Assembly: GCA_018715925.1 (NCBI GenBank) | Contig: DVKQ01000011.1 | Coordinates: 1 to 34,473 of the forward strand | Reading direction: 5' to 3' | Length of the DNA: 34,473 nucleotides | Source: Candidatus Onthousia faecipullorum | GTDB lineage: Bacteria > Bacillota_I > Bacilli_A > RF39 > UBA660 | Shown: in pieces, positions 10,062 through 27,329 of the stretch | Numbering within the stretch: the stretch's first letter is position 1 | Layout: each line of letters opens with the position of its first letter | Program-made: the position numbers and the translations under genes | The notes under the pieces: generated by a model | Databases searched by the model: none | What the model saw: the letters and a program-made list of their open reading frames with translations, nothing else | What the model was told of the DNA's origin: nothing

Positions 10062-10523
10062 ATGAATAGAGCGATGTTAGTTGTAGGTATTATCCTTTTA
10101 GCTATTATAACTTTTGGAGTTGTAAATATTATGCAAAATTATCAAACTGGTAATGAACTTGATTACTATTTGTTAAGAGAGACGACTGAAGCGGCAATGA
10201 CTGATGCAGTAGATGTTGGTTATTTCCGCTTAAGCGGTCAAGTTAGGATGGATAAAGAAAAATTTGTTGAAAGTTTTGTTAGACGTTTTTCTCAAAATGT
10301 TTCAAATAGTAGAACTTATGATATTGGTTTTTATGATATTAATGAGACACCACCTAAAGTTAGTATTTTAGTTAAATCTGAAACTGCTGCTAGTGTTAAT
10401 GATGCTTCTTTAGGAATTACTAATAAAATAGATGCAATTTTAGAAACTAATTATTATTCTAATGAGTATGTTACTAAGATGACTAGAGCAGGTGAGTTAG
10501 ATTATAGTGATGTTGATAGATAA
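10062..10523 (+). CDS. TadE-like / pseudopilin-like single-TM protein
   Basis: N-terminal TM immediately after MNRAM (LVVGIILLAIITFGVVNIM), then a soluble domain; sits directly upstream of cpaB-like and cpaF-like genes. Confidence 0.45.
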   Translation: MNRAMLVVGIILLAIITFGVVNIMQNYQTGNELDYYLLRETTEAAMTDAVDVGYFRLSGQVRMDKEKFVESFVRRFSQNVSNSRTYDIGFYDINETPPKVSILVKSETAASVNDASLGITNKIDAILETNYYSNEYVTKMTRAGELDYSDVDR

Positions 10524-10542
10524 AGGATAAGGAGGAAGTTAG

Positions 10543-11367
10543 ATGAATAATTTAGTTGTTGGTATAAAGAAATTCTTTACTAATAAAAATACTGTTACAG
10601 TTGTTGGTGTTATTCTTGCTATTATAATTATTTATGTAGGTTATAATATGCGTATTAATCAAGCGATTACACCTGTTACTGTTCCATATGCTATGGAAGA
10701 TATAAATCCTAGAACACAGATTACAGAAGACATGGTTGGTACTATGGAAATTCCTCAGTCAATGGTAAATGATAATATTATTTCTAATTCTGCGGATGTT
10801 ATAGATATGTATTCTAATTACAATAGTTTTATACCTGAAGGTAGTTTGTTCTATTCTAAGAGTGTTGTATCAAGAGATCAATTACCTGGAAATATAATAT
10901 TAGATTATCCTAAAGGATATGTTTTATATAACTTAGATGTTGATATGGCTAGTACTTATAGTAACCAAATTGTTCCTGGTAATTATATTGATATTTACTT
11001 AAAAGTTCAGAATGCTGAAGGTGCTCAAGGTACTGCGATTGCAGAAGATAGAATTATGGTTGGTAAGTTACTTTCTAATATTAAAGTACTTGCTGTATTT
11101 GATAGTAGTGGTAATGATGTTTTTGCTAATGTAGAAGAAAAAACAGCTCCTGCCCAGATTATATTTGCTGTTCCAGAAGAATATCATATTTTACTTCGTA
11201 AAGCAGGTTTCTTACGTGCTTATGAATCTGAAATTATTCCTGTTCCAACTAATGAAAGTTTAGAAGATGAGCCAGGTGACGTTGAGTTATCTAGTGAGGA
11301 TTTGAAAAACTTTATTAATAATGTTACAGCGATGACTGAAGAAGATTTATCTTATACACAACAGTAA
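10543..11367 (+). CDS. CpaB/RcpC-like SAF-domain pilus assembly protein
   Basis: TM then 'TPVTVPYAMEDINPRTQITEDMVGTMEIPQSMV' SAF-like segment and 'IVPGNYIDIYLKV'; adjacent to CpaF-like ATPase. Confidence 0.75.
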   Translation: MNNLVVGIKKFFTNKNTVTVVGVILAIIIIYVGYNMRINQAITPVTVPYAMEDINPRTQITEDMVGTMEIPQSMVNDNIISNSADVIDMYSNYNSFIPEGSLFYSKSVVSRDQLPGNIILDYPKGYVLYNLDVDMASTYSNQIVPGNYIDIYLKVQNAEGAQGTAIAEDRIMVGKLLSNIKVLAVFDSSGNDVFANVEEKTAPAQIIFAVPEEYHILLRKAGFLRAYESEIIPVPTNESLEDEPGDVELSSEDLKNFINNVTAMTEEDLSYTQQ

Positions 11368-11382
11368 AAAAGGGGTGATGAT

Positions 11383-12705
11383 ATGAACGATACCATATTT
11401 GATAAGTTAGATTTTGGGCTATTTGAACCACTTATTAAAGATGATGATATTACAGATATTTCTTATTGTAATCATGGACAAATTTGGGTTCGTTCCTTAA
11501 CTCAAGGTTCTAAAAGAGTAGAAATTGAAGGGCTAAATGATGCTTTTGTTGAAAAGTTAGCCTTTCAATGTTCTAATGTTATGGGAACTACTTTTAATAA
11601 TGCAAAACCATTTCTTGATGCTGAATCTACAGAGTTACGTCTTAACTTTGTACATGATTCTATTGCTACTAATGGTATTGCAGTAGTTATTCGTAAAACC
11701 CCTGCTAAGATTAGACTTAATAGAGATAAATTACTTAATGAAGATTATTTTACTGCTAATATTCATGATATTTTAATGAAATGTGTTGAAGGTCATTGTA
11801 ATATTATTGTAAGTGGAGAGACTGGTTCTGGTAAAACAGAATTTGTTAAGTATTTAGCAAGCCATACTAAAGAAAATGAGAAAATTATTACTATAGAAGA
11901 TACATTGGAACTTCATTTGGATAAGATATTTCCTCATAGAGACATAGTTGCTATGAAAACTAATAATGTGGCAAGTTATACCGATGTGTTGGTTACTTGT
12001 ATGCGTCAGAATCCTAAATGGATATTATTATCAGAAGTTCGTAGTGCAGAAGCGGTTACGGCAGTTCGTAACTCAATAAGTTCTGGACATAATATTTTAT
12101 CTACAATACATGCTGATAAAGCTAGTGCTATACCTTATCGTATGTATTCGCTTCTTGAGAGTGATATTGATGTTGATCAGTTTTTATCAACAATTTATAG
12201 ATATATTCAATTAGGAGTTCACATTAAAGCATATTATAGTAAAGAATATGGTAAGTTTCATCGTGAAGTCGATGAGGTTGTAGAATTTTATGTAGATGAT
12301 AATAATAAGCCACAGTCTCATATTTTATATCAAAAGACTTTTGGTAAGGCACCTGTACAAAATATGCCAACAGAGCATTTAAAAGAATATTTGGAAAATC
12401 AAAATATCTTTATTGATAATTTATTTACTAAAGGGGATTCAATGAATGTTATTAATAATGAAACTAATAATACTTTAGAAACAACTACTGTAAACGTAGT
12501 GGAATCTCCTAACTTTGAGAGTACTATTAGTAATAATATAAATAATGTTCAAACAAATATAAATAATTTAGCAAGCCAGTCTACTGTGGTTACACCTTAT
12601 CAAAATACGATGTTTAATCAGAGTAGTCAGGTTGTTTCAACTAATCAATTAGGCGTAAATGGTGTTCAAACATCTGTACCTAAAGATAACTTTCCTACTG
12701 AGTAA
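11383..12705 (+). CDS. CpaF/TadA-type secretion ATPase (VirB11/GspE superfamily)
   Basis: Walker A GETGSGKTEF; IEDTLELHL; MRQNPKWILLSEVRSAEAVTAVRNSISSGHNILSTIHAD. Confidence 0.93.
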   Translation: MNDTIFDKLDFGLFEPLIKDDDITDISYCNHGQIWVRSLTQGSKRVEIEGLNDAFVEKLAFQCSNVMGTTFNNAKPFLDAESTELRLNFVHDSIATNGIAVVIRKTPAKIRLNRDKLLNEDYFTANIHDILMKCVEGHCNIIVSGETGSGKTEFVKYLASHTKENEKIITIEDTLELHLDKIFPHRDIVAMKTNNVASYTDVLVTCMRQNPKWILLSEVRSAEAVTAVRNSISSGHNILSTIHADKASAIPYRMYSLLESDIDVDQFLSTIYRYIQLGVHIKAYYSKEYGKFHREVDEVVEFYVDDNNKPQSHILYQKTFGKAPVQNMPTEHLKEYLENQNIFIDNLFTKGDSMNVINNETNNTLETTTVNVVESPNFESTISNNINNVQTNINNLASQSTVVTPYQNTMFNQSSQVVSTNQLGVNGVQTSVPKDNFPTE

Positions 12706-12726
12706 GTTTAAGAGAGGAGGAATTTT

Positions 12727-13620
12727 ATGGTATTGTTTTTATTAATTGCGATTGCATTTGTTGTCCTTTTATATAGAAATTATCGAGGTAGTAATGTTTC
12801 TAAGTACATTACAGATCAAGTGCAAGTGATTTATGATAAGTTTGCTCCATATTCTTATAAAGTAGTAAGAGAAAAAACTAAGCAATTAGGTCAAGAATAT
12901 ACTGCAAGACAATATCTAATTCAAGTTTTGATTTTAGGTGGTTTTGCTGGTATTGTTACTTATATGTATTTTTATAATTTAATTGTATCTATTATTTATG
13001 TTGTTATTGCTATATGTTTTGTTCCTTACTTATCTTTTTTAAGATGCAAAAGAGTATATAGTGAGTTTATTTTTGAGCAGATTCAAGTTTATACTACTAA
13101 TACTATTATGGAGTTTGCAACTACGCAAAGCTTTGTTAAATCATTAGAAGGGGTTAGAGATTCAGGTATTCTTGAAGATCCTGTATTAGCGGATGTTAAT
13201 CATATGATAGATATTGCTTATGATGAAGGATCTATTGATGGAGCCTTAAAGTTCTTCAGTGATAAATACCCATTTTATATTGTAAAAAATATGCATCAGT
13301 TGTTTTTGCAAATAACTAAAGAAGGTGCTAGAGATACGGGAGAGAGTTTAGAAAATATGCAACTGGATATAGATACACTTGTCGAAAGTGTATATCGTGA
13401 TAGAATGGATAGAGCTAATTTCCATAAGAAGTTTTTACAATATGGTGTTATGTTATTTCTTTTAGTTATGTTAATACAATATATGTTAGGTACTGAAAGT
13501 TATATTGAACTTATTAAAGCTTTTTATGTTCAACTTATACTTCACGGTATTATTATATTTAATAGTTATTTCCTTTTAAAAGGAGAAAAATATTATAATG
13601 AGAATGTGGGGGTTGAATAG
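12727..13620 (+). CDS. TadB-like inner-membrane platform protein
   Basis: Hydrophobic N- and C-terminal helices around a cytoplasmic helical domain; position after cpaF. Confidence 0.65.
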   Translation: MVLFLLIAIAFVVLLYRNYRGSNVSKYITDQVQVIYDKFAPYSYKVVREKTKQLGQEYTARQYLIQVLILGGFAGIVTYMYFYNLIVSIIYVVIAICFVPYLSFLRCKRVYSEFIFEQIQVYTTNTIMEFATTQSFVKSLEGVRDSGILEDPVLADVNHMIDIAYDEGSIDGALKFFSDKYPFYIVKNMHQLFLQITKEGARDTGESLENMQLDIDTLVESVYRDRMDRANFHKKFLQYGVMLFLLVMLIQYMLGTESYIELIKAFYVQLILHGIIIFNSYFLLKGEKYYNENVGVE

Positions 13621-13622
13621 TT

Positions 13623-14411
13623 ATGGAAATAGTTTTTGTTGCAATTATTATTTTATTTATATTAGTTTATAATAGAACTATAGATAAAAATAAATTTATT
13701 AATGATAATAAAAAATATTTTGAAATATTAAGGGAAGATGATTATGACTTCTTAGTTTATGCTAAGTATGGTGATAGTGCTGAACCTAATTCTTTGTTTG
13801 AGAAGAGAGTTATGTATGCTTTAGGAGCTTTCTTCATCTTTATGTTCTTATTTATAGATGATGTTAGCTTAATTAATATTATTCTTTCATGTTTAGTTGC
13901 ATTTTTTATCTTTAAAATGCCTTATATGCAATTAAAACAATATTATAAAAAACATTTGCATCAAATTGATGTAATGTTGCCATACTATTTAAAGAGTTTA
14001 GAAATATTAATTCAACATTATACTGTACCTGTAGCGATAGGTAAAAGTATTCCTGATGCTCCTGATATTTTTAAACCTGGTCTTAGGGAAATGATTGAAA
14101 AGATTAATTCAGGAGATTCAAGTATTACACCTTATATGGATTTTGCTAATACTTATCCTGTTAGGGACTCTATGAGAATGATGAGACTTTTATATCGTTT
14201 AGGTCTTGGTGGACAAGAGAAAAAACAAGAAAGACTACTAATGTTTTCTCGTACGGTTTCTAATTTGCAGGCGAAAGCAAGAGATACTAAATATAAAGAA
14301 AGACTTGATCATATGGGTAATATGACAATGATTATGCTTGTTGTTACTGGTGTTAGTGTAATGATAGTTATACTTGCATCTTTGATGTCTAGTTTGGGTA
14401 CGGCTTTATAA
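13623..14411 (+). CDS. TadC-like inner-membrane platform protein
   Basis: LLYRLGLGGQEKKQERLLMFSRTVSNLQAKARDTKYKERLDHMGNMTMIMLVVTGVSVMIVILASLMSSLG; second platform-type protein in the Tad gene order. Confidence 0.65.
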   Translation: MEIVFVAIIILFILVYNRTIDKNKFINDNKKYFEILREDDYDFLVYAKYGDSAEPNSLFEKRVMYALGAFFIFMFLFIDDVSLINIILSCLVAFFIFKMPYMQLKQYYKKHLHQIDVMLPYYLKSLEILIQHYTVPVAIGKSIPDAPDIFKPGLREMIEKINSGDSSITPYMDFANTYPVRDSMRMMRLLYRLGLGGQEKKQERLLMFSRTVSNLQAKARDTKYKERLDHMGNMTMIMLVVTGVSVMIVILASLMSSLGTAL

Positions 14412-14437
14412 TTATGTAAAATACTAAAAAAAAGTAG

Positions 14438-14465
14438 TTACAAACTAGTGAATGTTTGGTATAAT
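14438..14465 (+). promoter_or_regulatory. Putative sigma-A promoter upstream of the small pilin-like gene
   Basis: TTACAA (14438-14443), 16 nt, TATAAT (14460-14465). Confidence 0.5.
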
Positions 14466-14499
14466 TATTTCTGTAAGATATGTGAAAGGAGTGAGTTAA

Positions 14500-14661
14500 A
14501 TGAAAGAAGCGACTGGTGAATTAAATATGACTGTAGTAACTATTGTACTTATTGGAGTTATTGCAGCATTCTTTGCTTTCTTTTGGCCTACAATCCAAGA
14601 AAGTATTCAAGATACTTGGAATGATAATACTAGTTCTCAATCAAATGTAGATTTTAATTAA
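14500..14661 (+). CDS. 53-aa Flp-pilin-like small protein (absent from the supplied ORF track)
   Basis: RBS-like AAAGGAG upstream; MKEATGELNMTVVTIVLIGVIAAFFAFFWPTIQESIQDTWNDNTSSQSNVDFN*: short leader ending in Gly6, one TM, short polar tail. Confidence 0.75.
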   Translation: MKEATGELNMTVVTIVLIGVIAAFFAFFWPTIQESIQDTWNDNTSSQSNVDFN

Positions 14662-14678
14662 TAAGGATGTGATTTATA

Positions 14679-15122
14679 ATGAGAGATGCGATAGGTCAAT
14701 TTTTTGTTTTACAAGTTATATTAGCTTTTGTTATTTTAATTAATGGTTATATGGCTTATTCTGTTAATTATGCTAGAGCATTTCGCGTTAAAAATCAAAT
14801 TGTTGATATTATTGAACAGTATGAAGGACCTTATAATCGAGAAGGAATAGAGAAGATTAATAGTTATATTGATCAGATGACTTATGAAGTTCCCGGACGT
14901 ATTGTTAATGAATTTGAAAGTGATTACGGTGGTGAGGCTAGTTGTCAAAATGGGTGGTGTTATATTCCACATAAAGTTACTATTGCTAGTGGTGATGAGG
15001 ATATGACAGGTTATTATTATTCTGTGGTTACTTTTGTTAATATTGATATTCCTGTAGTTAATAATATAATTGGATTAGGAAATTTTTTGAGAGTCTATGG
15101 TGAGACTAGAACTATCTATTAA
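14679..15122 (+). CDS. TadE-like / minor pilin-like protein
   Basis: MRDAIGQFFVLQVILAFVILINGYMAYSVNYARAFRVKNQIVDIIEQYEG: Gly6 then TM then amphipathic helix; C-terminal soluble domain with a Cys pair. Confidence 0.55.
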   Translation: MRDAIGQFFVLQVILAFVILINGYMAYSVNYARAFRVKNQIVDIIEQYEGPYNREGIEKINSYIDQMTYEVPGRIVNEFESDYGGEASCQNGWCYIPHKVTIASGDEDMTGYYYSVVTFVNIDIPVVNNIIGLGNFLRVYGETRTIY

Positions 15123-15139
15123 GAGAGGAAAGTGATATA

Positions 15140-16120
15140 ATGAATGTTATTATTGCTAATGAAGCTAAAACAATGCTTTCCACTTTAGATATTGATGTTA
15201 TTAAAAGCGTTGATGGTGTTCATACTGCTGAAGAGATAGTTGAAATGTTTAAAAACTTCTTTTATGCAAGAATGATTTTAGATGTAACAGCGATTAAAGA
15301 TTATGATAATATTACAAATATTCAAAAAATATCTATAGGTCTTGATGCTGATAAAATTATTCTTTTACTTCCTAATAATGAGATTTCTAATTCAAGTAGT
15401 TATTTATCTAAAATAATATCTATGGGTATTTATAATTTTACTACTACTGTTGATGGAATTAAGTATTTGTTAGATCATCCTAATACATATAAAGACGTTG
15501 CTCATATTCAACAGCTTAATGATTTATCTAGTACTATAAGTGATAAAGTAATTGCAGGTTCTAGTGTTATTGGAATTAAAAATATTACTGATCATGCTGG
15601 TAGTACAACATTAATTTATATGCTAAAAAAAGAATTGCAAGAGACGTATGGTATGAGTGTTGTTGCTATCGAAGTTAATCGACATGATTTCCTTTACTTT
15701 AACGATAATAATATGGTGTCTGTTGGTGATGATAAATTACTTAGTGAAATTGCTAAACATAAGGGAGCTGCTATTATCTTAATAGATTTAAATGATTCTA
15801 GTAATGAAGGTGCTTGTGATGATGTTTTGTATTTGATTGAGCCTTCTAGTATAAAACTTAATAAATTAATGAGAAGAGATAGAAAAATTTTTGAAGAATT
15901 AAAGGGTAAAAAGTTGGTTCTTAATATGAGTTTACTTTCTAATAGTGATATTATGGATTTTGAATATGAAGGTAGAACTAAGGTTTTTTATAACATACCA
16001 CCTTTAAATGATAGAGTTAAAAATCCTGTACTTAGTGATTTTTTATCTAAAGTTGGACTTGTTAATAATACTAAAGGTAAAGAAGGCAGTAGTAAAATTT
16101 TTGGACTATTTAAAAGATAA
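15140..16120 (+). CDS. TadZ/CpaE-like protein (receiver-like N-terminus plus divergent MinD-type ATPase domain)
   Basis: Position in the Tad order; N-terminal receiver-like alternation; GIKNITDHAGSTTLIYMLKKEL at the expected P-loop location. Confidence 0.5.
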   Translation: MNVIIANEAKTMLSTLDIDVIKSVDGVHTAEEIVEMFKNFFYARMILDVTAIKDYDNITNIQKISIGLDADKIILLLPNNEISNSSSYLSKIISMGIYNFTTTVDGIKYLLDHPNTYKDVAHIQQLNDLSSTISDKVIAGSSVIGIKNITDHAGSTTLIYMLKKELQETYGMSVVAIEVNRHDFLYFNDNNMVSVGDDKLLSEIAKHKGAAIILIDLNDSSNEGACDDVLYLIEPSSIKLNKLMRRDRKIFEELKGKKLVLNMSLLSNSDIMDFEYEGRTKVFYNIPPLNDRVKNPVLSDFLSKVGLVNNTKGKEGSSKIFGLFKR

Positions 16121-16152: not shown

Positions 16153-16175
16153 TATCTTAGTGAAGGAGAATGTAT

Positions 16176-16556
16176 ATGAATATGATGTTATTAATGAATA
16201 TTGTACAAGTTTTAGATACTACAGTAAATCCAGAAGATAATTGTCGTGGTTTTGGTTTTATCGTTAGAATTATTAAAAATGGTCTATTTCCTATTTTACA
16301 AATAGGTATTCCTATCATTTTAATAGTATTAGGTACCTTAGATTTAGGTAAAGCAGTTATTTCTAGTGATGATAAAGCTGTTAAAGAGGCACAATCTAAA
16401 TTAATTAAGAGATGTATTTATGCTATATTAGTATTCTTTATTGTTACTCTTGTTAATTTAGTGTTCTCTATGGTAGGTACTATTGCTGGAGATGATGCAC
16501 CTGGATTACAGTCTTGGAGTGCTTGTTGGTCCAATCCAGATGGTGGTTCAGAATAA
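16176..16556 (+). CDS. VirB2-like two-TM protein, paralog 1
   Basis: GLFPILQIGIPIILIVLGTLDLGKAVISSDDKAVKEAQSKLIKRCIYAILVFFIVTLVNLVFSMVG. The track starts at 16170, but ATG 16176 has proper spacing to AAGGAGA. Confidence 0.65.
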   Translation: MNMMLLMNIVQVLDTTVNPEDNCRGFGFIVRIIKNGLFPILQIGIPIILIVLGTLDLGKAVISSDDKAVKEAQSKLIKRCIYAILVFFIVTLVNLVFSMVGTIAGDDAPGLQSWSACWSNPDGGSE

Positions 16557-16561
16557 TGGGG

Positions 16562-16586
16562 AATAGCAATTTAATTGCTATTTTTT
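16562..16586 (+). terminator. Rho-independent terminator after VirB2-like paralog 1
   Basis: AATAGCAAT TTA ATTGCTATT followed by TTTT. Confidence 0.85.
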
Positions 16587-16602
16587 CTTAAGGAATGATT
16601 TT

Positions 16603-16947
16603 ATGTTTCAGATATTAGATGTAATGGTAAATTTTGAAAGTAATTGTTCTGGACTTGATTCTATTATTAGAGTTATTAAAGAAGGAGTGTTTCCTATTGT
16701 ACAAATAGCGATACCTATTATTTTAATAGTTCTTTGTACTTTAGATTTGGGGAAGGCAGTTATAGGAAGTGATGATAAAGAAAATAAGAAATTACTTAAG
16801 AGAATAGTAAGAAGACTTGTGTATGCTTTGATTTTATTCTTTTTAGTAACAGTTATTAATTTAATATTTACTATGGTTGGTTCTATTACTGAAAATGAGA
16901 CTTTAATTAGATGGAGTAATTGTTGGAATTATCCTATGGAAAATTAG
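16603..16947 (+). CDS. VirB2-like two-TM protein, paralog 2
   Basis: GVFPIVQIAIPIILIVLCTLDLGKAVIGSDDKENKKLLKRIVRRLVYALILFFLVTVINLIFTMVG; clearly paralogous to 16176-16556. Confidence 0.65.
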   Translation: MFQILDVMVNFESNCSGLDSIIRVIKEGVFPIVQIAIPIILIVLCTLDLGKAVIGSDDKENKKLLKRIVRRLVYALILFFLVTVINLIFTMVGSITENETLIRWSNCWNYPMEN

Positions 16948-16973
16948 ATAGCAATTTAATTGCTATTTTTTTT
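16948..16973 (+). terminator. Rho-independent terminator after VirB2-like paralog 2
   Basis: ATAGCAAT TTA ATTGCTAT plus T run; same hairpin as 16562-16586. Confidence 0.85.
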
Positions 16974-16994
16974 CTATGATGATATACTTTATTT

Positions 16995-18263
16995 ATGATG
17001 TTGGGAGAAGATTATATGAAAAAGAAATTATTTATTTTGATTGGAATTTTTGTTTTTTTAATACCTTTTACAGTTGATGCTAAGACTACCAAAGAATGTA
17101 CTTATAGAGTTGAATCTGGTTTATCTACGAATAGTGTAATGCAAGCTAATCTTAAATGTACATTAAATTGGGAAGAACCTTCTTTTTTTGGCTTATTTGG
17201 TGGATTTAGTTATAGCTGTAAAATTGTAAGAGATGCTACTGGTGATGGATATTCTGATATTACTATTGTACCTGTTAATGCTACTAAAAGTTGGGATACA
17301 GGTTTTAACTTATCTAATTGGTTTGAAGAAAATACTAAGTGTCCTTCTTATGCTGTTGTTGATGTTTCTATTTTAGATAAAAATGAAGGTAGAAGTACTT
17401 ATTCTGTTTTTTTTGCTGATACAATGACTCAAGTAAATAAAATAAAAGATATTGGTCCAGGACTTATTAAAACTCATGTTAGTATTAGTGCTAGTGAAAG
17501 AGCAAACTTGAGTCATTTTATGGAAACTAATAAAAGAAATGAGGAAGCAGAAAATAATCCTGATAGTGAGGCTGCTAGAGAATGTGTTTCTAAAAAAGAA
17601 GCATTGGATAATGCAATAGCTTTATTACAAGCTAATAGAGATAAGCTTATTGAGATGAATTGTCAAAATTATGTATTAAGTGATGAAGAACGTGATACTG
17701 TTGCTAGTCCAGATAATATTAAATGGGGAAGAGAATGTCAACAAATTACAGATACCTATAATGTTACTGTTTCATCTGCTCGTTCGGAACTTAATAATTA
17801 TGTACAAGCTGGTTGTTTAGATGTAAACAGTACTGAATATAATGAGTATAATGGTAAAATAAATAGTTTAGAACAAGAAGTTGAAGAAATTGATAATAAT
17901 ATAGAAGAACAGAATACAAGACCAACTGATGAGGAAAGAGAATGGGAAGAATTAGGTGATGGAATTGAGATTGATACAACAACTATAGGTTGTGGTGATA
18001 TATTTGGAACAGAAGAAGGATCATTTGGATGGCTTTTAAATACTATACTTGGTTATATTAGAGTAATTGGACCTATATTAGTAGTATTATTAAGTGCAAT
18101 TGACTTTATAAAAGCAGTAGTTGGATTTGATGAGAAAGCAATGAAAGAAGCTCAGAATAAATTAATTATTAGATTAGTTTGTGCAGTTGCTTTATTCTTA
18201 GTACCTACATTAGTTCAGTTATTATTCTCATTTATTAACGAGACAGTTTGTACTTTAAACTAA
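16995..18263 (+). CDS. Secreted multidomain protein with C-terminal VirB2-like two-TM domain, paralog 3
   Basis: Signal peptide; coiled-coil middle; C-term 'ILGYIRVIGPILVVLLSAIDFIKAVVGFDEKAMKEAQNKLIIRLVCAVALFLVPTLVQLLFSF' aligns with paralogs 1 and 2. ATG 17016 (MKKKLFILIG) is an alternative start. Confidence 0.7.
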   Translation: MMLGEDYMKKKLFILIGIFVFLIPFTVDAKTTKECTYRVESGLSTNSVMQANLKCTLNWEEPSFFGLFGGFSYSCKIVRDATGDGYSDITIVPVNATKSWDTGFNLSNWFEENTKCPSYAVVDVSILDKNEGRSTYSVFFADTMTQVNKIKDIGPGLIKTHVSISASERANLSHFMETNKRNEEAENNPDSEAARECVSKKEALDNAIALLQANRDKLIEMNCQNYVLSDEERDTVASPDNIKWGRECQQITDTYNVTVSSARSELNNYVQAGCLDVNSTEYNEYNGKINSLEQEVEEIDNNIEEQNTRPTDEEREWEELGDGIEIDTTTIGCGDIFGTEEGSFGWLLNTILGYIRVIGPILVVLLSAIDFIKAVVGFDEKAMKEAQNKLIIRLVCAVALFLVPTLVQLLFSFINETVCTLN

Positions 18264-18323: not shown

Positions 18324-20396
18324 GTGAACTTTTTTGGTGATCCTAACTTTTTAAATGATGCATTAAGATCTATATTTAGTGGTTTGGATAGTTTAGGGTA
18401 TTTCTTACTTGATGCTGTTTATAATATTTTCTTTACGGTTGCAAATGCAAATATTTTTCAAGGTGTAACAATTAATATATTTTATGAAAGGGTTCAATTG
18501 ATTTTAGGAGTGTTTATGATATTTAAACTATCTATAACACTTCTACAAATAATTATTAATCCTGATATGTATAAAGATAAACAGAAGGGGGCGGGTTCTT
18601 TAGTTACAAGAATTGCAGTTATACTTGTGTTACTTACTTTAATTGTTCCTATTGAAAATGTTCCTAATACTGAAAATTCACTTAATGAACAGATTAGTAG
18701 TAATGGTATTTTATTTGGTTTTTTATATCAAATTCAAAATACCGTTATAAAAGATAATGTATTAGGTAAGCTTGTTTTAGGTTCTAATGTTGATAGCACA
18801 GAAGGAACTGGTACAGAGCTTGATAATATGGGTGACGTGGGTTCCCAACTTGCCGCTACTGTTGCTAAGGCTTTTATTAAACCTACTTTAAGTAGTAGTG
18901 CAGATGAAGATAATATAACGGCAATGAAAGGTAATGATGGTAATAGTTATCAAGAGAATATTGCATGTAATGGTGGAGAAGCTGATCCTTATTTTAATAG
19001 TAGTCTTACAGCAGGTACTCTTATTAATCATATTAATGATACTTGTGACTCTGATGATGATGGAGAAGTATATGTATTTAATTATGCTATTATAGGTGGC
19101 TTAATATGTTCTCTTATTATGGTATTTATTATTTTAGGATTTACTATAGATGTAGCGGTAAGAGCTGTAAAACTTGCTATTTTAAGACTTATTGCACCTA
19201 TTCCTATTATTTCTTATATTGATCCTAGCCAAGGGAAAGATGGTGCTTTTAATAATTGGGTTAAGACTTTGACTTCTACTTATCTTAGTTTGTTTGTAAG
19301 ATTGATAATTATATACTTTGGAGCTTATTTAATTATTTTATTAACTAATAATAGTGATGATTTTTCAATCTTACAAACTAGTACAAGTGTATTTACATCA
19401 TTTTTTGCAACAATATTCATTATTATTGGTATTTTAATGTTTATGAAAGATGCACCTAAGTTTTTCCAAGATATGTTAGGAATTAAAGGTGATGGTAAAT
19501 TATTTAGTGGTATTGGTACAATACTTGGGGCTGCTGCTTTAACTGGTGGTTTAGTTGGTTCTGTTGCAACTGGTGTAAGAGCTGGATGGGCTGAAGGGCA
19601 GGAATTTAGAGATAAATCTGAAAAAGGTACGCCTGCTAGATATTTAAGAAATGCTTGGACTGGAATTGGAGCAGGAGTCGCAGGTTTAACTAGTGGAGTA
19701 GGAGGACTTGTAACTGGTGGTAGAGCACTTGCTACTGCTGATAAAAAAGTTCCAAGTTCTGTTATGTCTGCAATGCAAAAGCGAAATGCTATGAGAGCAT
19801 CGCACTCTACTGCTTTAGGTAGACTTTCTAGTGAAGCTTATGGTATGTTTACTGGTAGAACTTTAGCAGAGAAAGATAAACAAGCTTTAGAAGTTAATCA
19901 AGCCGCTGTTAAACAGATGCAGGAATGGAAGAGCTTTACTGAAGGTGAAGCTAAGAAGAAAGGCGATTTTGGTTATTCTAAGTATGGTATATACTCAGCT
20001 ACTGATGGAAGAACGCAAATTAGAGCTTTCAATTATGAACGTTTGGTAGCTGCAATGAATGCAAAAGATAGTAGTGGAAACTTTAAGTATGGTGGTTTAC
20101 AGTATAATGTTAGAGATTTTGATGCAAATGTAATGGGAGAAATCTTAAAAAGTCAGAATAGTCGTTATGTTAAGGCAGTTTTTGATGGTACTGAAGATAA
20201 TCCTGGTGTTTTATCAAATTGGGAATTAGCAAAAAAAGCTTTAGCTGATGCTGATATTGACTATAAAGGTGAATATCTTGATCCTATGGTTATAGGTCCA
20301 ACTATAGGTGTTGCAAGTTCTAAAGCACAAGAGATGCAAACTGGTATGAAACATATTAAACATATTGCTAACCATAATGCTAATAAGAGTAAATAG
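18324..20396 (+). CDS. VirB6/TrbL-like polytopic membrane protein with long soluble C-terminus
   Basis: Multiple TM helices, DVAVRAVKLAILRLIAPIPIISYIDPSQGKDGAFNNWVKTLTSTYLSLFVRLIIIYFG, Gly/Ala-rich segment, soluble tail. GTG start. Confidence 0.7.
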   Translation: MNFFGDPNFLNDALRSIFSGLDSLGYFLLDAVYNIFFTVANANIFQGVTINIFYERVQLILGVFMIFKLSITLLQIIINPDMYKDKQKGAGSLVTRIAVILVLLTLIVPIENVPNTENSLNEQISSNGILFGFLYQIQNTVIKDNVLGKLVLGSNVDSTEGTGTELDNMGDVGSQLAATVAKAFIKPTLSSSADEDNITAMKGNDGNSYQENIACNGGEADPYFNSSLTAGTLINHINDTCDSDDDGEVYVFNYAIIGGLICSLIMVFIILGFTIDVAVRAVKLAILRLIAPIPIISYIDPSQGKDGAFNNWVKTLTSTYLSLFVRLIIIYFGAYLIILLTNNSDDFSILQTSTSVFTSFFATIFIIIGILMFMKDAPKFFQDMLGIKGDGKLFSGIGTILGAAALTGGLVGSVATGVRAGWAEGQEFRDKSEKGTPARYLRNAWTGIGAGVAGLTSGVGGLVTGGRALATADKKVPSSVMSAMQKRNAMRASHSTALGRLSSEAYGMFTGRTLAEKDKQALEVNQAAVKQMQEWKSFTEGEAKKKGDFGYSKYGIYSATDGRTQIRAFNYERLVAAMNAKDSSGNFKYGGLQYNVRDFDANVMGEILKSQNSRYVKAVFDGTEDNPGVLSNWELAKKALADADIDYKGEYLDPMVIGPTIGVASSKAQEMQTGMKHIKHIANHNANKSK

Positions 20397-20411: not shown

Positions 20412-20738
20412 ATGAATGATAGTTATTTAATACCTGCTAATACAAAAAGGGGAACTTTGATACTTGGATGGTTTAAGCCATTTGATTTGATATTACTGGG
20501 AACTGGAGTTTTAATTTCTCTTGTTCTCTTGATGACTTTTCCTATGGCTTCTACTTGGCAAGTTGTTTTGGTTTTATTACCTGGATTAACTTGTGCATTT
20601 CTTGTTATTCCAATACCTAATTATCATAATATTTTAACTATAATTATAGAGTGTTATAATTTCTTTACAGGTAGAAGGAATTATATATGGAAAGGTTGGT
20701 GTGTTAAAGATGTCCAAGATGTCAAAAACAGTAGGTAG
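20412..20738 (+). CDS. PrgI/VirB3-like small membrane protein
   Basis: IPANTKRGTLILGWFKPFDLILLGTGVLISLVLLM and NFFTGRRNYIWKGW; directly precedes VirB4. Confidence 0.7.
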   Translation: MNDSYLIPANTKRGTLILGWFKPFDLILLGTGVLISLVLLMTFPMASTWQVVLVLLPGLTCAFLVIPIPNYHNILTIIIECYNFFTGRRNYIWKGWCVKDVQDVKNSR

Positions 20739-21267
20739 TCAGTATACTGAAGATTGGCTTCCTATTATAGGAATACAAAATGGTTATATAATCTGTGAAG
20801 GAAAACAGAAAGTTACTGGAGTTAAAATTACTCCTCGTAATATCTTTATTCTTGATCAACAATCTCAAGAGAATGTCTTGATTAGTCTTAAAAATTTTTA
20901 TAATATGATAGACTTTACCTTTTGGTTAGTTGTTGCTGATAGACCTGTAGATATATCTGTTTATATGTCACAACTACAACTTCTATATAACGATACAACA
21001 TCTCCTGCTATTCGTAAGTTAATCTTACAAGATATAGATAAAGGTAATACTTTTATGAATAATAATATTGTTGATACTGAGTACTTCATTCTATTTAAAG
21101 ATGCTAGTGAAGATGTATTACAGAAAAGGGTTCGTTTATTGATTAATGGACTTGCATCTTGTGGACTTAATGCTTCACAAGTTAGTAATGATGATCTTAG
21201 AATAATTATGGAAAACTTCTTAAATGGAGGAGTTAATACAGAGTTTGGGACGGTGATGCCTGTATGA
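20701..21267 (+). CDS. VirB4-like N-terminal domain as a separate polypeptide
   Basis: DWLPIIGIQNGYIICEGKQKVTGVKITPRNIF; no ATPase motifs; overlaps the next gene by ATGA. Confidence 0.65.
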   Translation: MLKMSKMSKTVGSQYTEDWLPIIGIQNGYIICEGKQKVTGVKITPRNIFILDQQSQENVLISLKNFYNMIDFTFWLVVADRPVDISVYMSQLQLLYNDTTSPAIRKLILQDIDKGNTFMNNNIVDTEYFILFKDASEDVLQKRVRLLINGLASCGLNASQVSNDDLRIIMENFLNGGVNTEFGTVMPV

Positions 21268-23054
21268 GTATAAGTTTAAAGAGTCAGTTAGCTCCTAAAG
21301 GATTACAATTTAATCCTAGTGACTTTAATATTAGCGATAAGTATGCAACTATATTATCAGTTATATCTTATCCTCGTTATATCGCACCTGGTTACCTTTC
21401 AACATTGACTTCTATGAGTGGTATTAAAATAGTTATTAAACATATTCCTGTACCATTTAGTACTATGTCTAAAATGATTAATAGACAAGTTGCAGATTTA
21501 AGAGAAAGATATCGTCAAGAAAAAGATCAGACTACTAAGGAGAGAATTAGACAGGATGCTGAGAGCCTTGAATCCTTTGTCTCTATGCTTGCATCAAGTC
21601 AGTCTCGTATTTTTGATTTTCAAATGCATATTATGATAAATGCTGATACTAAAGAAGACTTGGAGTTACGTAAAGTAAATGTTAAGAACTATTTGGATGC
21701 AATGGAACTTAGAGCGGTTTCTTTACGTTTTGAACAGGAGAAAGTTTTAAAAAGTATCTTGCCAATATTTCCTAATCAAGATATAGAAGAGAGAATTGGT
21801 ACTCCTATTCCAACTCCTACTATTGCAGCGATGTATCCTTTTATCTTTGATAGTATTAAAGATCCAGGATTATCTGTTTTACTTGGAGTTGATTTTTCTG
21901 GAGGGGTAATCTTATTTAATCAATTTCTTTATCAAATAAGAAAAGAGAATAATAGAAATAATGCTAATATGATTATACTTGGTACTTCAGGTTCTGGTAA
22001 AAGTACGGCTGCTAAATTGTTACTTAGATCTCATATTAGAAATGGTTGTCAGATAGTTGCAATTGACCCTGAAAATGAGTTAGAAGAGATGACTAGAACT
22101 TTTGGTGGAGATACTATTGATATTGGTAAAGGTGGAGAGTTTGGACTCATTAATCCATTAGAAGTCATTATAGATGCTGATGATGAGGAGATTAGAGATG
22201 GACTTGGTTATACTGTTTTAACTCGTACTTTACAGTCACTTAGAGCCTTTATGAAGTATTATGATCCATCTATAGAAGAAGATGTACTTAATATGTTTAG
22301 TGAGATTGTTCAAGATACATATAAACGTTTTGGAATAGATTTTAATACAGATTTTAGTAATTTTACATCTGCTGATTATCCAACTTTTTCTGATGTATAT
22401 GCTACTATTAAGGGAAGACTTTTATCATTAACAGAACAGACTAGAGAAAAAGATATTATTCAAAGACTTGAACTTAAGATTAGACCTTTAATAAAAGAAT
22501 TAAAATTCTATTTTGATGGTAAGACTACGTTAACTGCTAATAGTGATTTTATGGTATTTAATATAAAAGAATTTATGAATTCTGATACTAATATTAGAAA
22601 TGCTTTATTTTTTAATATCTTAAAATATGCTTGGGGACTTTGTCTTGATCCAACAGTTAATACAATATTAATGGTAGATGAAGCTCATGTATTACTTAGC
22701 AATAACAATGAACAAGGAGCTGATTTCCTTGCTCAAGTACAACGACGTGCTCGTAAATATAATACAGGTACAATAATTATTACCCAGCAGCCTAGTGACT
22801 TCTCTAGTCCTTCAATTATTACACAGGGGAAAGCAATATTTGATAACTCATCATATTATCTTGTTATGGGACTTAGAAAACAGGCTGTTGAAGATTTATC
22901 ATTATTAATAGATTTAAATGAAAATGAGAAAGATAGTATTAAGAGATATTCTCAAGGTGAAGCACTGTTTGTATGTGGTAATAGACGTATGAGAATAAAT
23001 ATAGTTGTTACGCAAGAAGAATTAGAATCATTTGGTAGTGCTGGAGGATTTTAG
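21264..23054 (+). CDS. VirB4-like T4SS ATPase
   Basis: Walker A GTSGSGKSTAAKLLLRS, IDPENELEEMTRTFGGDTIDIG, Walker B TILMVDEAHVLLS, RRARKYNTGTIIITQQPSDF. Confidence 0.93.
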   Translation: MSISLKSQLAPKGLQFNPSDFNISDKYATILSVISYPRYIAPGYLSTLTSMSGIKIVIKHIPVPFSTMSKMINRQVADLRERYRQEKDQTTKERIRQDAESLESFVSMLASSQSRIFDFQMHIMINADTKEDLELRKVNVKNYLDAMELRAVSLRFEQEKVLKSILPIFPNQDIEERIGTPIPTPTIAAMYPFIFDSIKDPGLSVLLGVDFSGGVILFNQFLYQIRKENNRNNANMIILGTSGSGKSTAAKLLLRSHIRNGCQIVAIDPENELEEMTRTFGGDTIDIGKGGEFGLINPLEVIIDADDEEIRDGLGYTVLTRTLQSLRAFMKYYDPSIEEDVLNMFSEIVQDTYKRFGIDFNTDFSNFTSADYPTFSDVYATIKGRLLSLTEQTREKDIIQRLELKIRPLIKELKFYFDGKTTLTANSDFMVFNIKEFMNSDTNIRNALFFNILKYAWGLCLDPTVNTILMVDEAHVLLSNNNEQGADFLAQVQRRARKYNTGTIIITQQPSDFSSPSIITQGKAIFDNSSYYLVMGLRKQAVEDLSLLIDLNENEKDSIKRYSQGEALFVCGNRRMRINIVVTQEELESFGSAGGF

Positions 23055-23093
23055 AAATAGTTAAAGTAATGTATGTAGAGGGAAGTGGTGATT

Positions 23094-24869
23094 ATGGAAG
23101 GAGAAAAATTTAGTAAGAAAAATAGAAAAAAAATAGTTTTTTCTTCTTCTAATTATTTGAAACTTGTTCTAGTAGCATTACTTTTTTCTATTTGTCTTAT
23201 TAGTTTAACTTTTTGTTTTAAAATTAGTATTATCTCTAATAATAATGAATTGCTTTCTTATAGTGATGCTTCAGATGAATTTTATGATAGACTTGATCAA
23301 GTATATAATGAATATCATGGAGAAGATAAAGAGTTTGCTAAATTTGTTATTACTTCAACATTTACTGTTATTCATTTGCATATTCCTGATTTTACTTATG
23401 AAGATATGTCTCTTGATATGATGAGAAAAGTTGCTGATTTAATGGTTGATGAAGTAGAACATGATGATGGTAGTATTACTTATACAGATAAAGGAGAAGA
23501 AGCGGTTAAAGAAGGGTTAGTAGATTATTTTAAAGATGTTGATTCTAGTCTTTCCGATACTACTTGTAAGCGGATGGCGGAAGATGTTTATGATTATATA
23601 GAAGATTATTTAGAGTTTATTGGGGCTAATGAAGGAGAAGGTAATGGCTCTACTTCTAGTTGTGTTGGTAATTCTTATTGGTGGCCTATAGGTAGTGCTG
23701 ATACAACTTTAGAAAATGATGTTACTTTTGCTAGTGGTGATCCTGTCCCTTCTACTATAACTGCTACTTTTGCAGGGAATGATTCTGTTCATGATGGTAG
23801 TCATGGAGCGATTGATATATCTAATGATTTAGGTGTAGGTGGTACAAATATAATTGCTGCTAAGGATGGAGTTGTAATTTATCCTACAAGTGATGAGCAG
23901 ATTCAATATGCCGATAATGGTTATGTTGGTAATCTTGATGGTGGTGGTTATGGCAATTATGTTGTTATAGAACATTCTGATGGTAATTATACATATTATG
24001 CTCATATGGCTCAAGGTAGTATTACTGTTATGGCAGGTGATACAGTTAAGCAGGGACAAGTAATTGGTAAGATGGGTAATTCTGGTAGTTCTACAGGAGT
24101 TCACTTGCATTTTGAAGTTAGATCTGGTGGTAATACTAGTTCTAATAGAGTTGATCCTCTAGATTATGTTAGTATGGAGAGTCCTAGGTCTTCTTGTGTT
24201 GATTTTTCTTTAACTACTTCATCTTTATCAAAACAGGAATTTATATCTAAGATGGAAGCATATTGTACTAATAGTGGAAACAATGCCTTTTGTACTAATT
24301 TTTCTAGTCATGCTGAAGAAGTTTATGATGTATCAGTAGAGGCAGGTGTTAATCCAGAACTTGTTGTTGTTACAGCAGGAACAGAGCAAGGATGGGAAAA
24401 GTGCGATGGATATTCTAATTACTGGGGTATAGGAATATCAAATGGTGAATCTTGTAGTGGTGGACCACATTTAACTTCTTTAGCGGAGGGAATAAGAACT
24501 TATGCTAATGTTTTAAAAGAATATCAACCTGGTGGTGCAAAGGCATCTCTTATTGAAACAAGAAATCAAGAAAGAGAAGCGGCAGGATGTGATGCTGCTG
24601 GACATGGGCCTCCTGGTAGTTTAGCAGGTATGCAATCTATTTATTCTTGGGTTGGTGATTATCGCTTTAGCCCTGGAACTTGGGGACGTGGCGGTTGTAA
24701 ATACCTTGATATAATATATGGTTCTGGTTATTGTTCTACTAAATCAGTTTGTACAAATTATTCAAATTGTCCAGCAAGCAGTGCTACTACAGTTTGTGAA
24801 CAAAATGATTATACTGCTTGGCAATTACAAGGAAAATTAGAGCTTAGAAATACAATATTTGGTTTATAG
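23094..24869 (+). CDS. Membrane-anchored bifunctional peptidoglycan hydrolase: M23 (LytM) domain plus lysozyme/glucosaminidase-like domain
   Basis: HDGSHGAIDIS...YGNYVVIEHSDGNYTYYAHM...GVHLHFEVRSGG (M23); C-terminal VEAGVNPELVVVTAGTEQGWEKCDGYSNYWGIGI. The track starts at 23085. Confidence 0.88.
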   Translation: MEGEKFSKKNRKKIVFSSSNYLKLVLVALLFSICLISLTFCFKISIISNNNELLSYSDASDEFYDRLDQVYNEYHGEDKEFAKFVITSTFTVIHLHIPDFTYEDMSLDMMRKVADLMVDEVEHDDGSITYTDKGEEAVKEGLVDYFKDVDSSLSDTTCKRMAEDVYDYIEDYLEFIGANEGEGNGSTSSCVGNSYWWPIGSADTTLENDVTFASGDPVPSTITATFAGNDSVHDGSHGAIDISNDLGVGGTNIIAAKDGVVIYPTSDEQIQYADNGYVGNLDGGGYGNYVVIEHSDGNYTYYAHMAQGSITVMAGDTVKQGQVIGKMGNSGSSTGVHLHFEVRSGGNTSSNRVDPLDYVSMESPRSSCVDFSLTTSSLSKQEFISKMEAYCTNSGNNAFCTNFSSHAEEVYDVSVEAGVNPELVVVTAGTEQGWEKCDGYSNYWGIGISNGESCSGGPHLTSLAEGIRTYANVLKEYQPGGAKASLIETRNQEREAAGCDAAGHGPPGSLAGMQSIYSWVGDYRFSPGTWGRGGCKYLDIIYGSGYCSTKSVCTNYSNCPASSATTVCEQNDYTAWQLQGKLELRNTIFGL

Positions 24870-24882
24870 GAGATGGTTTTTT

Positions 24883-25401
24883 ATGAATAAAACATCTAAA
24901 ATAGAATTAAGTATAGTTATATTACTTGTTGTTATTTTTTGTGGGAGTTTTATATATATGAAATCTATGGAAGTTATGAAAGATAATGAAAGTATTAATA
25001 CAGATGTTGTTGCTCTTGCTGATGTTAATCGTTTCTTTACTATAGATTCTGCTATTTCCAAGTATTTTTCTTATATTACTTTAAAAGATGGAGAATCTTT
25101 GTTAAGCATATTAGATGAAGACTATATAAGTAGAAACAATATTACTACTGCTAATATCTATCAATTTGTTGGTAATTATAATAGTAATATAAAGACTAGT
25201 TTAGAGGAAGCCTACAGAGTTAGTTCTTATAAAAATATTTATAAATATTATACTAAAGTGGTGCTTAATGAAGAGACATTATATGATTCTACTTTACAAG
25301 GATATAACTATTATATAGTTACAATTAATGAAAATGAATTAACTTATGCAATAGAGCCTATTTCTGAAATTATTTATAACAATAAAGTGAAAGGAAGCTG
25401 A
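24883..25401 (+). CDS. Single-TM extracytoplasmic protein, VirB8/TcpC-like candidate 1
   Basis: N-terminal TM (KIELSIVILLVVIFCGSFIYM) and a small soluble domain. The track starts at 24859; ATG 24883 fits the RBS. Confidence 0.35.
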   Translation: MNKTSKIELSIVILLVVIFCGSFIYMKSMEVMKDNESINTDVVALADVNRFFTIDSAISKYFSYITLKDGESLLSILDEDYISRNNITTANIYQFVGNYNSNIKTSLEEAYRVSSYKNIYKYYTKVVLNEETLYDSTLQGYNYYIVTINENELTYAIEPISEIIYNNKVKGS

Positions 25402-25406
25402 TTATT

Positions 25407-25865
25407 GTGGAGAAGAAAATTAAAATTGTTGTTTATATAATCCTTGTAGCTTTACTTTTCTTTTTAATATTTAGAAACTTTAGAATAGTTAATGATGTGG
25501 AAAGAGAGCTTCCTAGTAATGAAGAATTAAATGAGTTTAATAATGTTCAATCTAAAAGTAATGCTAATAGTTATGAAGTTAAAGATATTCCTGATAAAGA
25601 GCTTGTTACTATTTATTATAATCATTTTAAGAATTTAGTAGTTAATAATAGTAGTGAAGCTTATAATAGAGTTAGAAATAAAGATAATATGCCAATAGAG
25701 AAATTTAATTTATTTAGAGATAGTTTAGTAAATAATTATTATAATAATAAAGTTGCTAGTTATAGAATTTCTGATAATACTTATAAAATTGTAAATAGTA
25801 ATAATCAAACTATTATTTTCTATGTTGATGCAGTTTATAAATACGAAGTAGAGTTGTTATTTTGA
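25407..25865 (+). CDS. Single-TM extracytoplasmic protein, VirB8/TcpC (NTF2-like) candidate 2
   Basis: N-terminal TM then DKELVTIYYNHFKNLVVNNSSEAYNRVRNKDNMPIEKFNLFRDSLVNNYYNNKVASY, an NTF2-like pattern. Confidence 0.4.
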   Translation: MEKKIKIVVYIILVALLFFLIFRNFRIVNDVERELPSNEELNEFNNVQSKSNANSYEVKDIPDKELVTIYYNHFKNLVVNNSSEAYNRVRNKDNMPIEKFNLFRDSLVNNYYNNKVASYRISDNTYKIVNSNNQTIIFYVDAVYKYEVELLF

Positions 25866-25895
25866 TAGTATAGATAAAGTAAAGGTGGTGGTAAT

Positions 25896-27329
25896 ATGAG
25901 AGAAGAAGATATTGAAACGTTAGATGATGAAGGACAAGGTTTAGGACAAGAGAATCAAAATGATAATAATTCTTCTATAAAAAAAACTTCTTCACCTTTA
26001 AAAGATGCTATTACTAATATTGCAGGTGCAACTTTAGATAGTAATAAATATAAAAGTAAATTAAATCATATTAATCCTAATGATGATAATAGCACAACTA
26101 TGGCTAAAAATGATTTTAATAAGACTATTCCTAGTAAAGAATCTAATACAGTCAATACTGTTAAGAATGCAGTTGGTAATAAAGCAGTTAATGCTGTTTC
26201 TAATTTACATCCTGCTTTAAAAGGAGTTAATATTGCTAGAAATATTATAAGTGGTAGAAGGTCTAATAATAGTAATACTAGTGGTAATAATTCTATTAAT
26301 AATAACAATAGCAATAGTCCTGCTAATGATAATAATAATACTGATAGTAATAATATAAATACTAAAAATAATGATGTTATGCCCAATAATACAGTTAATA
26401 ATGGTATTGATAATAGTGATGATAACTCTTCTAGTAATAGGGGAAGTATTTTAAATTCGCTAAATCCTCTTAGTTCTGTTTTAGGAGGTACTAGTGGTGT
26501 ATCTGGTAGATTTAGTTTTTTAGGAAAGATACCTGTAGCATTAAAATTTGTTATTATTGGTGCGGTTTCTTTCTTTGGACTTTTGATTTTAACTTTGCTA
26601 CCAGCATTAATTATAATTAGTCTTTTTAGTAGCTTTTTTGGAATGGATTCAACTATTACTAGTAGTGGTAATGGAAGTGGTAATATTGATTATGGTGATT
26701 ATGAATTGTCATCAGATGGTGATGAAATATTACATCAACCATTAAGTGCTTTTTTAACAACAAATGGTTCTAGTTTAGCTGAATTTAATAATTTAATTAC
26801 TACTAATGTTGAGGATGCTGGTTTTGGTACAAGAGCTGGAGTTGTCGCTTCTGCAGTTACATTAATTGCAGAACTTGGTAATAACTATGATGTTAAAGTT
26901 CCTTATTATTGGGGTGGAGGTCATGGTAATATTGCAAATGGTGCTTTAGGTAATTGGGGAAGTAGTGAGTGTCATACATATGCGAATGGTCAATCTTATA
27001 ATTACTGTGGATTAGATTGTTCTGGTTTTGTTACGTGGGCTATTTATAATGGAGGATTTAACATGTCTCCTAGAACAGCTGGTACTTTTCAATATTTACC
27101 TGGTGCAGAAAGGGTTACTTTAAGTAGTAGTGGTGTTTTACAACCTGGTGATTTGATGGAATCTGACCATCACATTGTATTAATTGTTGAAGTAGTAGAT
27201 GAGGGGTATGTGTGTGCTGAAGCAGCAGGTAACTCTACAGGAGTTAAGTTCTCAATTAGAAGTTTTAATGCAAGTGGATATTGGGGGGTTAATATGGATG
27301 GCTTTTATGAGCGACAAGCGAGGAGTTAA
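25896..27329 (+). CDS. NlpC/P60-type peptidoglycan hydrolase with Asn/Ser-rich cytoplasmic region and one TM
   Basis: VPYYWGGGHGN...YNYCGLDCSGFVTWAIYNGG...LQPGDLMESDHHIVLIVEVV; low-complexity N-rich segment; TM PVALKFVIIGAVSFFGLLILTLLPALIIISLF. Confidence 0.85.
   Translation: MREEDIETLDDEGQGLGQENQNDNNSSIKKTSSPLKDAITNIAGATLDSNKYKSKLNHINPNDDNSTTMAKNDFNKTIPSKESNTVNTVKNAVGNKAVNAVSNLHPALKGVNIARNIISGRRSNNSNTSGNNSINNNNSNSPANDNNNTDSNNINTKNNDVMPNNTVNNGIDNSDDNSSSNRGSILNSLNPLSSVLGGTSGVSGRFSFLGKIPVALKFVIIGAVSFFGLLILTLLPALIIISLFSSFFGMDSTITSSGNGSGNIDYGDYELSSDGDEILHQPLSAFLTTNGSSLAEFNNLITTNVEDAGFGTRAGVVASAVTLIAELGNNYDVKVPYYWGGGHGNIANGALGNWGSSECHTYANGQSYNYCGLDCSGFVTWAIYNGGFNMSPRTAGTFQYLPGAERVTLSSSGVLQPGDLMESDHHIVLIVEVVDEGYVCAEAAGNSTGVKFSIRSFNASGYWGVNMDGFYERQARS

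Follow-up and report, generated by a model that had tools for sequence, protein, structure and literature searches.

Gene content of the locus

The window, that is, the whole stretch of 34,473 nucleotides that was analysed, is a single contig of a 1.41 Mb draft genome whose named near relatives are Candidatus Onthousia MAGs (Bacilli). Genes in the window are found in the order DUF5411, RcpC-like, TadA/VirB11 ATPase, TadB/C-like, Flp-like, TadE-like, TadZ-like, short pilin (S), longer and often headed pilin (L), VirB6/TrbL, PrgI-like and VirB4, followed 3' of the split VirB4 by an M23 peptidase, small single-helix genes, an NlpC/P60-like gene and VirD4 (Table 1). The S position is occupied by two genes, P0001 and P0002, and the L position by P0003. 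The locus is flanked by housekeeping genes (TypA; nicotinate and NAD genes) and opens with a gene for a secreted, Cys-rich protein of 964 aa that has no known domains (window positions 7164-10058), which is found in the same place in several relatives.

Regarding the Tad-like block, matches to PF17424 (E 4e-50) and PF00437 (E 2e-28) were detected, TIGR03819 and TIGR02788 match equally, and the RcpC match reaches 28.7 bits for a cut-off of 28.8. The TadA/VirB11 ATPase is clear and the Flp-like gene is weak; TadB and TadC were unmatched by Pfam, the names TadB, TadC, Flp, TadE and TadZ being given solely by gene order. One prepilin peptidase is encoded elsewhere in the genome.

Regarding the T4SS genes, VirB4 and VirB6 match the Mycoplasma ICE models NF045975 and NF045889, respectively, and the split of VirB4 into genes for an N-terminal domain and an ATPase is also kept in relatives. 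The NlpC/P60-like gene matches NLPC_P60 weakly (18.0 bits, cut-off 23), while the two single-helix genes gave no family match and are VirB8-like by position only. Relaxases of PF03432, PF03389 and PF02486 were not detected in the genome and no relaxase was found in the locus. Two Mob_Pre relaxase genes are present on other contigs of the same genome (41 and 18), possibly on mobilisable elements, and mobilisation in trans via the T4SS is thus possible.

Table 1. Features of the Tad-like and T4SS gene region, in window coordinates.
Feature	Position	Strand	Remarks
Tad-like block: DUF5411, RcpC/CpaB-like, TadA/VirB11 ATPase, TadB/C-like, Flp-like (53 aa), TadE-like, TadZ-like	10062..16120	+	
P0001, S-type pilin 1: short T4SS_pilin-like two-helix hairpin	16170..16556	+	128 aa; immediately 3' of TadZ
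Hairpin and T run ATAGCAATTTAATTGCTATTTTTT, terminator-like, 3' of P0001	16563..16586	+	
P0002, S-type pilin 2, genus-level duplicate of the S pilin	16603..16947	+	114 aa
Identical hairpin and T run 3' of P0002	16948..16971	+	hairpin letters of both copies ATAGCAATT
Promoter-like TTGCTA-17-TATACT 5' of the L pilin, second hexamer preceded by TG	16960..16988	+	consensus match only
P0003, L-type headed pilin	16995..18263	+	422 aa; adjoins the VirB6 gene
P0003 head, secreted Cys-containing beta domain (residues 30-153)	17082..17453	+	AlphaFold2 secondary structure
P0003 head, three-helix bundle (residues 192-307)	17568..17915	+	block pLDDT 82-96, best-predicted part
P0003 C-terminal pilin anchor (residues 344-421)	18024..18257	+	family model match 350-415; helices 344-376, 380-421
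VirB6/TrbL-like membrane protein	18324..20396	+	PF19597, E 5e-11; NF045848/NF045889
PrgI/VirB3-like small membrane protein	20412..20738	+	by position and topology; no Pfam match; kept between VirB6 and VirB4 in relatives
VirB4, split: N-terminal gene (20701-21267) and ATPase gene (21264-23054)	20701..23054	+	NF045975, E 2e-13 and 5e-104
M23 peptidase, two single-helix genes, NlpC/P60-like gene	23085..27329	+	PF01551, E 3e-23
VirD4-type coupling ATPase	28087..30294	+	NF045973 (CD1115 family) over cut-off; PF02534, E 7e-58

Hairpin modules and family assignment

P0001, P0002 and the C-terminus of P0003 are homologous two-helix hairpins with a likeness far beyond chance. A whole-genome search with P0001 recovered P0002 at 55% identity (E 2e-37) and the C-terminus of P0003 at 39% (E 1.7e-12), which bears out the claim of the sequence-only reading that the three products have a Cys, a TM segment, a charged loop and a second TM segment in common. 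That description had missed one detail: the conserved cysteines are two, and in each module one Cys precedes the first, hydrophobic helix while the other follows the second helix, the helices being joined by a charged loop. Both cysteines are present in 231 of the 236 family members with a module E-value of at most 1e-5 (113 of 116 S-type and 118 of 120 L-type). Sequences and AlphaFold2 models both show a pair of hydrophobic helices with a charged loop between them, the model of P0001 (mean pLDDT 78) having its hairpin at H29-65/H68-105. The charge of the loop and the signal peptide of P0003 suggest that the module loop is cytoplasmic, and both cysteines would then lie outside, where they could form a disulfide. 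The likelier start of P0001 is the ATG at 16176, preceded by GGAG, and the probable start of P0003 is the ATG at 17016 (Met8), which is kept in 23 of 23 aligned homologues.

A fourth, divergent two-Cys module (L055:6393-6746; 38% identity and E 4e-5 to P0001) is present on contig 66 of the same genome, where it stands alone beside methyltransferase and MltG-like genes, away from the T4SS.

Regarding family identity, the evidence supports modules of the T4SS_pilin (PF18895) kind that are VirB2-like in topology and gene order. No single window copy passed any Pfam or NCBIfam cut-off, scores against PF18895 being 11.9 and 18.5 bits or absent for a gathering cut-off of 26.6 bits, and PF18895 had no match in the genome itself at E 0.001; weak matches of single window copies to unrelated membrane families were also seen. 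PF18895 was matched by 20 of 38 short relatives (best E 1.3e-7), with many members from the same family exceeding the curated cut-off, and hhalign of the profile against PF18895 pilins from other families of the class gave a probability of 94% (E 1.4e-7). Four S pilins match NF045849. The genes beside the pilins, encoding VirB6, VirB3-like and VirB4 proteins, are those of a VirB2-type neighbourhood. In contrast, the VirB2/TrbC family PF04956 had no match in the window at E values up to 1, and hhalign against F TraA and R388 TrwL, each as a single sequence, gave probabilities below 1%; direct membership in classical PF04956/TraA is therefore unsupported. Thus, the earlier suggestion of VirB2-like modules holds by way of members over the PF18895 cut-off, the profile match and gene order, but not as a sequence match to classical VirB2 or TraA. 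Foldseek searches that started from the S and L models yielded nothing significant in fold for either the pilin or the head, PDB sequence searches gave no significant match for S or L, a PHROGs search gave nothing, and PADLOC returned only generic HerA/mad8 matches to the VirB4 ATPase.

Two pilin classes and their conservation

The modules form two ancient classes, the short S pilins encoded behind TadZ and the longer, often headed L pilins encoded directly 5' of VirB6. In a tree of 112 modules the basal split lies between S and L, with an SH-aLRT support of 90% (not starred) over an alignment of only 100 columns. P0001 has P0002 as its sister among the S modules of the genus, and P0003 falls in the L class; the local triplication proposed from the sequence is therefore retained as a lineage-specific duplication for P0001 and P0002, while a recent triplication that includes P0003 is rejected because the two classes separate at the base of the tree. 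Heads have also been gained by S-class modules in some relatives (8 label changes on the tree).

The arrangement of Tad-like genes, S, L, VirB6, PrgI, VirB4 and VirD4 recurs in nearly all relatives and is shared across an order of Bacilli that is probably RF39, since Ca. Faecimonas, one of the relatives scanned, belongs to that GTDB order (PMC8035907). A pilin module lies immediately 5' of VirB6 in 98 of 98 distinct loci and immediately 3' of TadZ in 79 of 79, and these 79 loci always have at least two pilins (two in 58, three in 16, four in 3 and five in 2). Most loci were collected via VirB4, so that the pilin was no selection criterion for the synteny counts. An L pilin query matches 134 of the 146 genomes of the order, and anchor matches of the L profile in a phylum-level sample are confined to this family; L-profile matches outside it cover the N-terminal signal and head region only and were discounted.

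VirB4 has a mean column identity of 84% across 31 genomes and is single-copy in the genome, indicating a system that is kept and not passing through. Given these features and the housekeeping flanks, we consider it unlikely that the locus is a mobile element in transit.

Headed pilins are not confined to the order, since a secreted protein of 511 aa from another family of the class has at its C-terminus a T4SS_pilin module that scores over the Pfam cut-off (L159:169-1704).

Regarding expression, the 24-base hairpin and T run has exactly two copies in the genome, each behind an S pilin, with no further copy of the element within two mismatches; the hairpin folds better than shuffled sequences (z about -2.8) and variants of the element are found in relatives. 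The promoter-like sequence ahead of P0003 has its counterpart in a similar TATACT box 5' of L in many relatives. A hairpin behind each S gene together with a promoter-like box before L makes separate control of S and L plausible.

Constant anchors and changing heads

The AlphaFold2 model of P0003, built with 23 homologues, begins with a signal helix; a beta domain and a three-helix bundle follow, and a disordered linker leads to the hairpin (residues 344-421). With a pTM of 0.39 and a mean pLDDT of 73, the model is reliable at the domain level only. The product had been described beforehand as a pilin module fused to an extracytoplasmic coiled-coil domain; the fusion stands, whereas the beta domain and three-helix bundle do not fit a pure coiled coil. 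Despite the three-helix bundle, the head has no Pfam match, no PDB sequence match and no significant fold match, and no VirB5 sequence or fold was recognised in it. Of 90 headed proteins, more than 90% have a Cys within a 'CP' motif region. A short L ectodomain (<230 aa) is encoded in 32 of 79 loci (about 40%), so that a large head is not essential everywhere.

Heads of a different content were also observed, with Amidase_3 and NlpC/P60 domains on a pilin anchor in two relatives (L064:5824-7698, L066:7567-9318) and a C39-like peptidase head in one of these (L064:2219-3346). Among the 90 headed proteins scanned, only heads of these two loci have a known hydrolase domain, and the head in the window has none.

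Tandem L copies have anchors that are 82-99% identical, while global alignment of their heads gives only 19-36%, roughly what unrelated sequences would give, and DNA repeats of 244-337 bp (96-98% identity) cover the anchors. Near-identical anchors with unrelated heads inside one genome point to recombination at the anchor. Within the genus, where VirB4 is 94-97% identical, anchor identity is 69-90% and head identity ranges from 53% down to 18%. In the same genus, 19 heads from 14 species, typed after removal of the signal peptide and junction, fall into 8 types without detectable similarity between types (E 1e-4). The head type of the window is common to three congeners and to other genera (E 6e-25, 5e-17), while closer species have other types; this distribution cannot be explained by divergence in place and needs exchange, or the retention and loss of several old copies. 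Caution is due to assembly errors of MAGs in repeats, yet the head pattern recurs in many independent assemblies.

VirB6 was found to vary more within the genus (42-78% identity) than VirB4, mostly in a C-terminal tail and one loop, and an examination of its co-variation with the heads gave no clear link. In a further relative (L074:8596-12781), two L pilins are arranged head to head, and their anchors make up an inverted repeat of 337 bp (96%). A near-perfect palindrome of 27 bp occurs twice between the two pilins, and a tyrosine recombinase gene is found beside them; this region resembles an invertible promoter or a switch based on inversion.

Interpretation and rival explanations

VirB2-type conjugative pilins assemble into pili, which are five-start lipid-pilin filaments. 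The three genes are best explained as paralogues for T4SS_pilin-type subunits of a T4SS that is chromosomal, kept by vertical descent and joined to a Tad-like locus, with L as a headed minor pilin or tip adhesin that docks on VirB6 and recombines its heads, a reading that we hold with moderate confidence. P0001 and P0002 would be short S pilins and likely structural subunits, and P0003 a Sec-exported head on a membrane-spanning hairpin with the charged loop inside and both Cys-bearing ends outside. Since L is always encoded directly 5' of VirB6, it would most likely form the first ring on VirB6 and take its final place at the tip or on the outer face of the secretion machine, much as in the R388 model, in which VirB5 is at the tip and the pilus grows from VirB6 with VirB2 inserted between (PMC9259494). 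The head of L would contact a partner cell or surface in this monoderm, as VirB5 or a cell-wall adhesin does elsewhere, and may act as a changeable recognition part, with recombination between near-identical anchors joining new heads to the same anchor. The separate hairpins after the S genes and the promoter-like box before L fit differing expression levels, and the earlier suggestion of major and minor pilins plus a tip adaptor can reasonably be inferred. The hydrolase heads of two relatives, which are unlike adhesins, were counted against this explanation, as were the short L ectodomains of about 40% of loci, the window scores under the PF18895 cut-off and the negative outcomes with TrwL, TraA and Foldseek.

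The main rival, unlikely in our judgement but with arguments of its own, is that no pilus is formed and the hairpin is a membrane anchor or channel-ring subunit, with L lining or capping a channel and its heads crossing the cell wall. Pili are described as absent from Gram-positive systems (PMC12857230), the S-type hairpin could form a channel ring by itself, and L proteins with short ectodomains are common. However, VirB2-like pilins are known from the monoderm Patescibacteria, where the array is essential (PMC12857230, PMC12102498), and at least two paralogues per locus with separate terminator-like elements suggest that the subunits are made in unequal amounts.

The hydrolase and peptidase heads of L064 and L066 could also mean that L is mainly a part for cell-wall remodelling or an envelope scaffold (VirB1- or VirB8-like) brought into place by its pilin hairpin. 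Such heads are confined to those few of the 90 scanned proteins and do not include that of the window, and the locus already has M23 and NlpC/P60-like genes of its own, making this role improbable. Still less credence is given to heads that are antigens under immune or phage pressure, for which change itself would be the function and no specific receptor would be needed; replacement of heads on a near-constant anchor would agree with this, as would the tandem VirB2 paralogues of Bartonella and Anaplasma, which are so read in literature cited in PMC12102498, but head types that recur across genera and a Cys-Pro motif region common to more than 90% suggest functional limits. Chance resemblance among small hydrophobic hairpins, to which the weak matches of single window copies to unrelated membrane families might point, is already refuted by the E-values within the window (2e-37 and 1.7e-12), the Cys pair in 231 of 236 members, the perfect synteny and the module tree.

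Comparison with known systems and significance

VirB2 and VirB5 are said to be missing from Gram-positive T4SSs except in Patescibacteria (PMC12857230), and the closest known relatives of the pilin-based system proposed here are the VirB2-like pilin arrays of the patescibacterial T4SS (PMC12102498; Ca. S. epibionticum locus, PMC12857230), which are tandem arrays of 2-11 divergent VirB2-like pilins (PMC12102498). Common to both are a chromosomal monoderm T4SS with VirB4, PrgI/VirB3 and VirB6 and several divergent PF18895-type pilins in tandem; a relaxase is absent from most patescibacterial loci, and none was found in this locus. Unlike the patescibacterial systems, the one described here belongs to the class Bacilli, is fixed beside a Tad-like block and has one fixed short and one fixed VirB6-adjacent pilin. 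It also has large exchangeable heads on near-identical anchors, while the accessible text of PMC12102498 makes no mention of heads.

The order of pilin-like, VirB6-like and VirB4 genes is like that of Mbov_0395/0396/0397 in the Mycoplasma ICE (NF045849, NF045889, NF045975), but that element is mobile with one small pilin-like gene, whereas this locus is a single-copy chromosomal fixture in which no relaxase was found. Diderm VirB2/VirB5 systems (R388 TrwL/TrwJ, F TraA) likewise have a two-helix hairpin with a charged loop and, in the working model, a separate tip protein; here the tip-like part is fused to the pilin, and no sequence match to TrwL or TraA was obtained. The role proposed for the head, contact with a partner cell, is that of Gram-positive cell-wall adhesins (PrgB and others, PMC12857230), but unlike PrgB-type adhesins the head has no LPxTG anchor and rides on a pilin hairpin.

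A wider proposal, which we put forward as possible and tentative, is that an order of small-genome gut Bacilli has domesticated a hybrid Tad-T4SS machine that builds a pilus and bears a tip pilin with a constant anchor and a cassette-like head, the head being exchanged by recombination, perhaps switched by promoter inversion in at least one relative, and letting a strain choose its partner cell.

Thus, pilin-like subunits beside a Tad-like block are a fixed part of a T4SS locus in an order of Bacilli, in contrast to reviews that name Patescibacteria as the sole exception (PMC12857230), and the head of the headed pilin is swapped wholesale between close species. The locus provides a testable candidate for partner contact and selection by uncultured small-genome gut bacteria, and an example from nature of heads being exchanged on a pilin scaffold. 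If the proposal is true, these Bacilli would have a pilus-building T4SS with built-in head switching.
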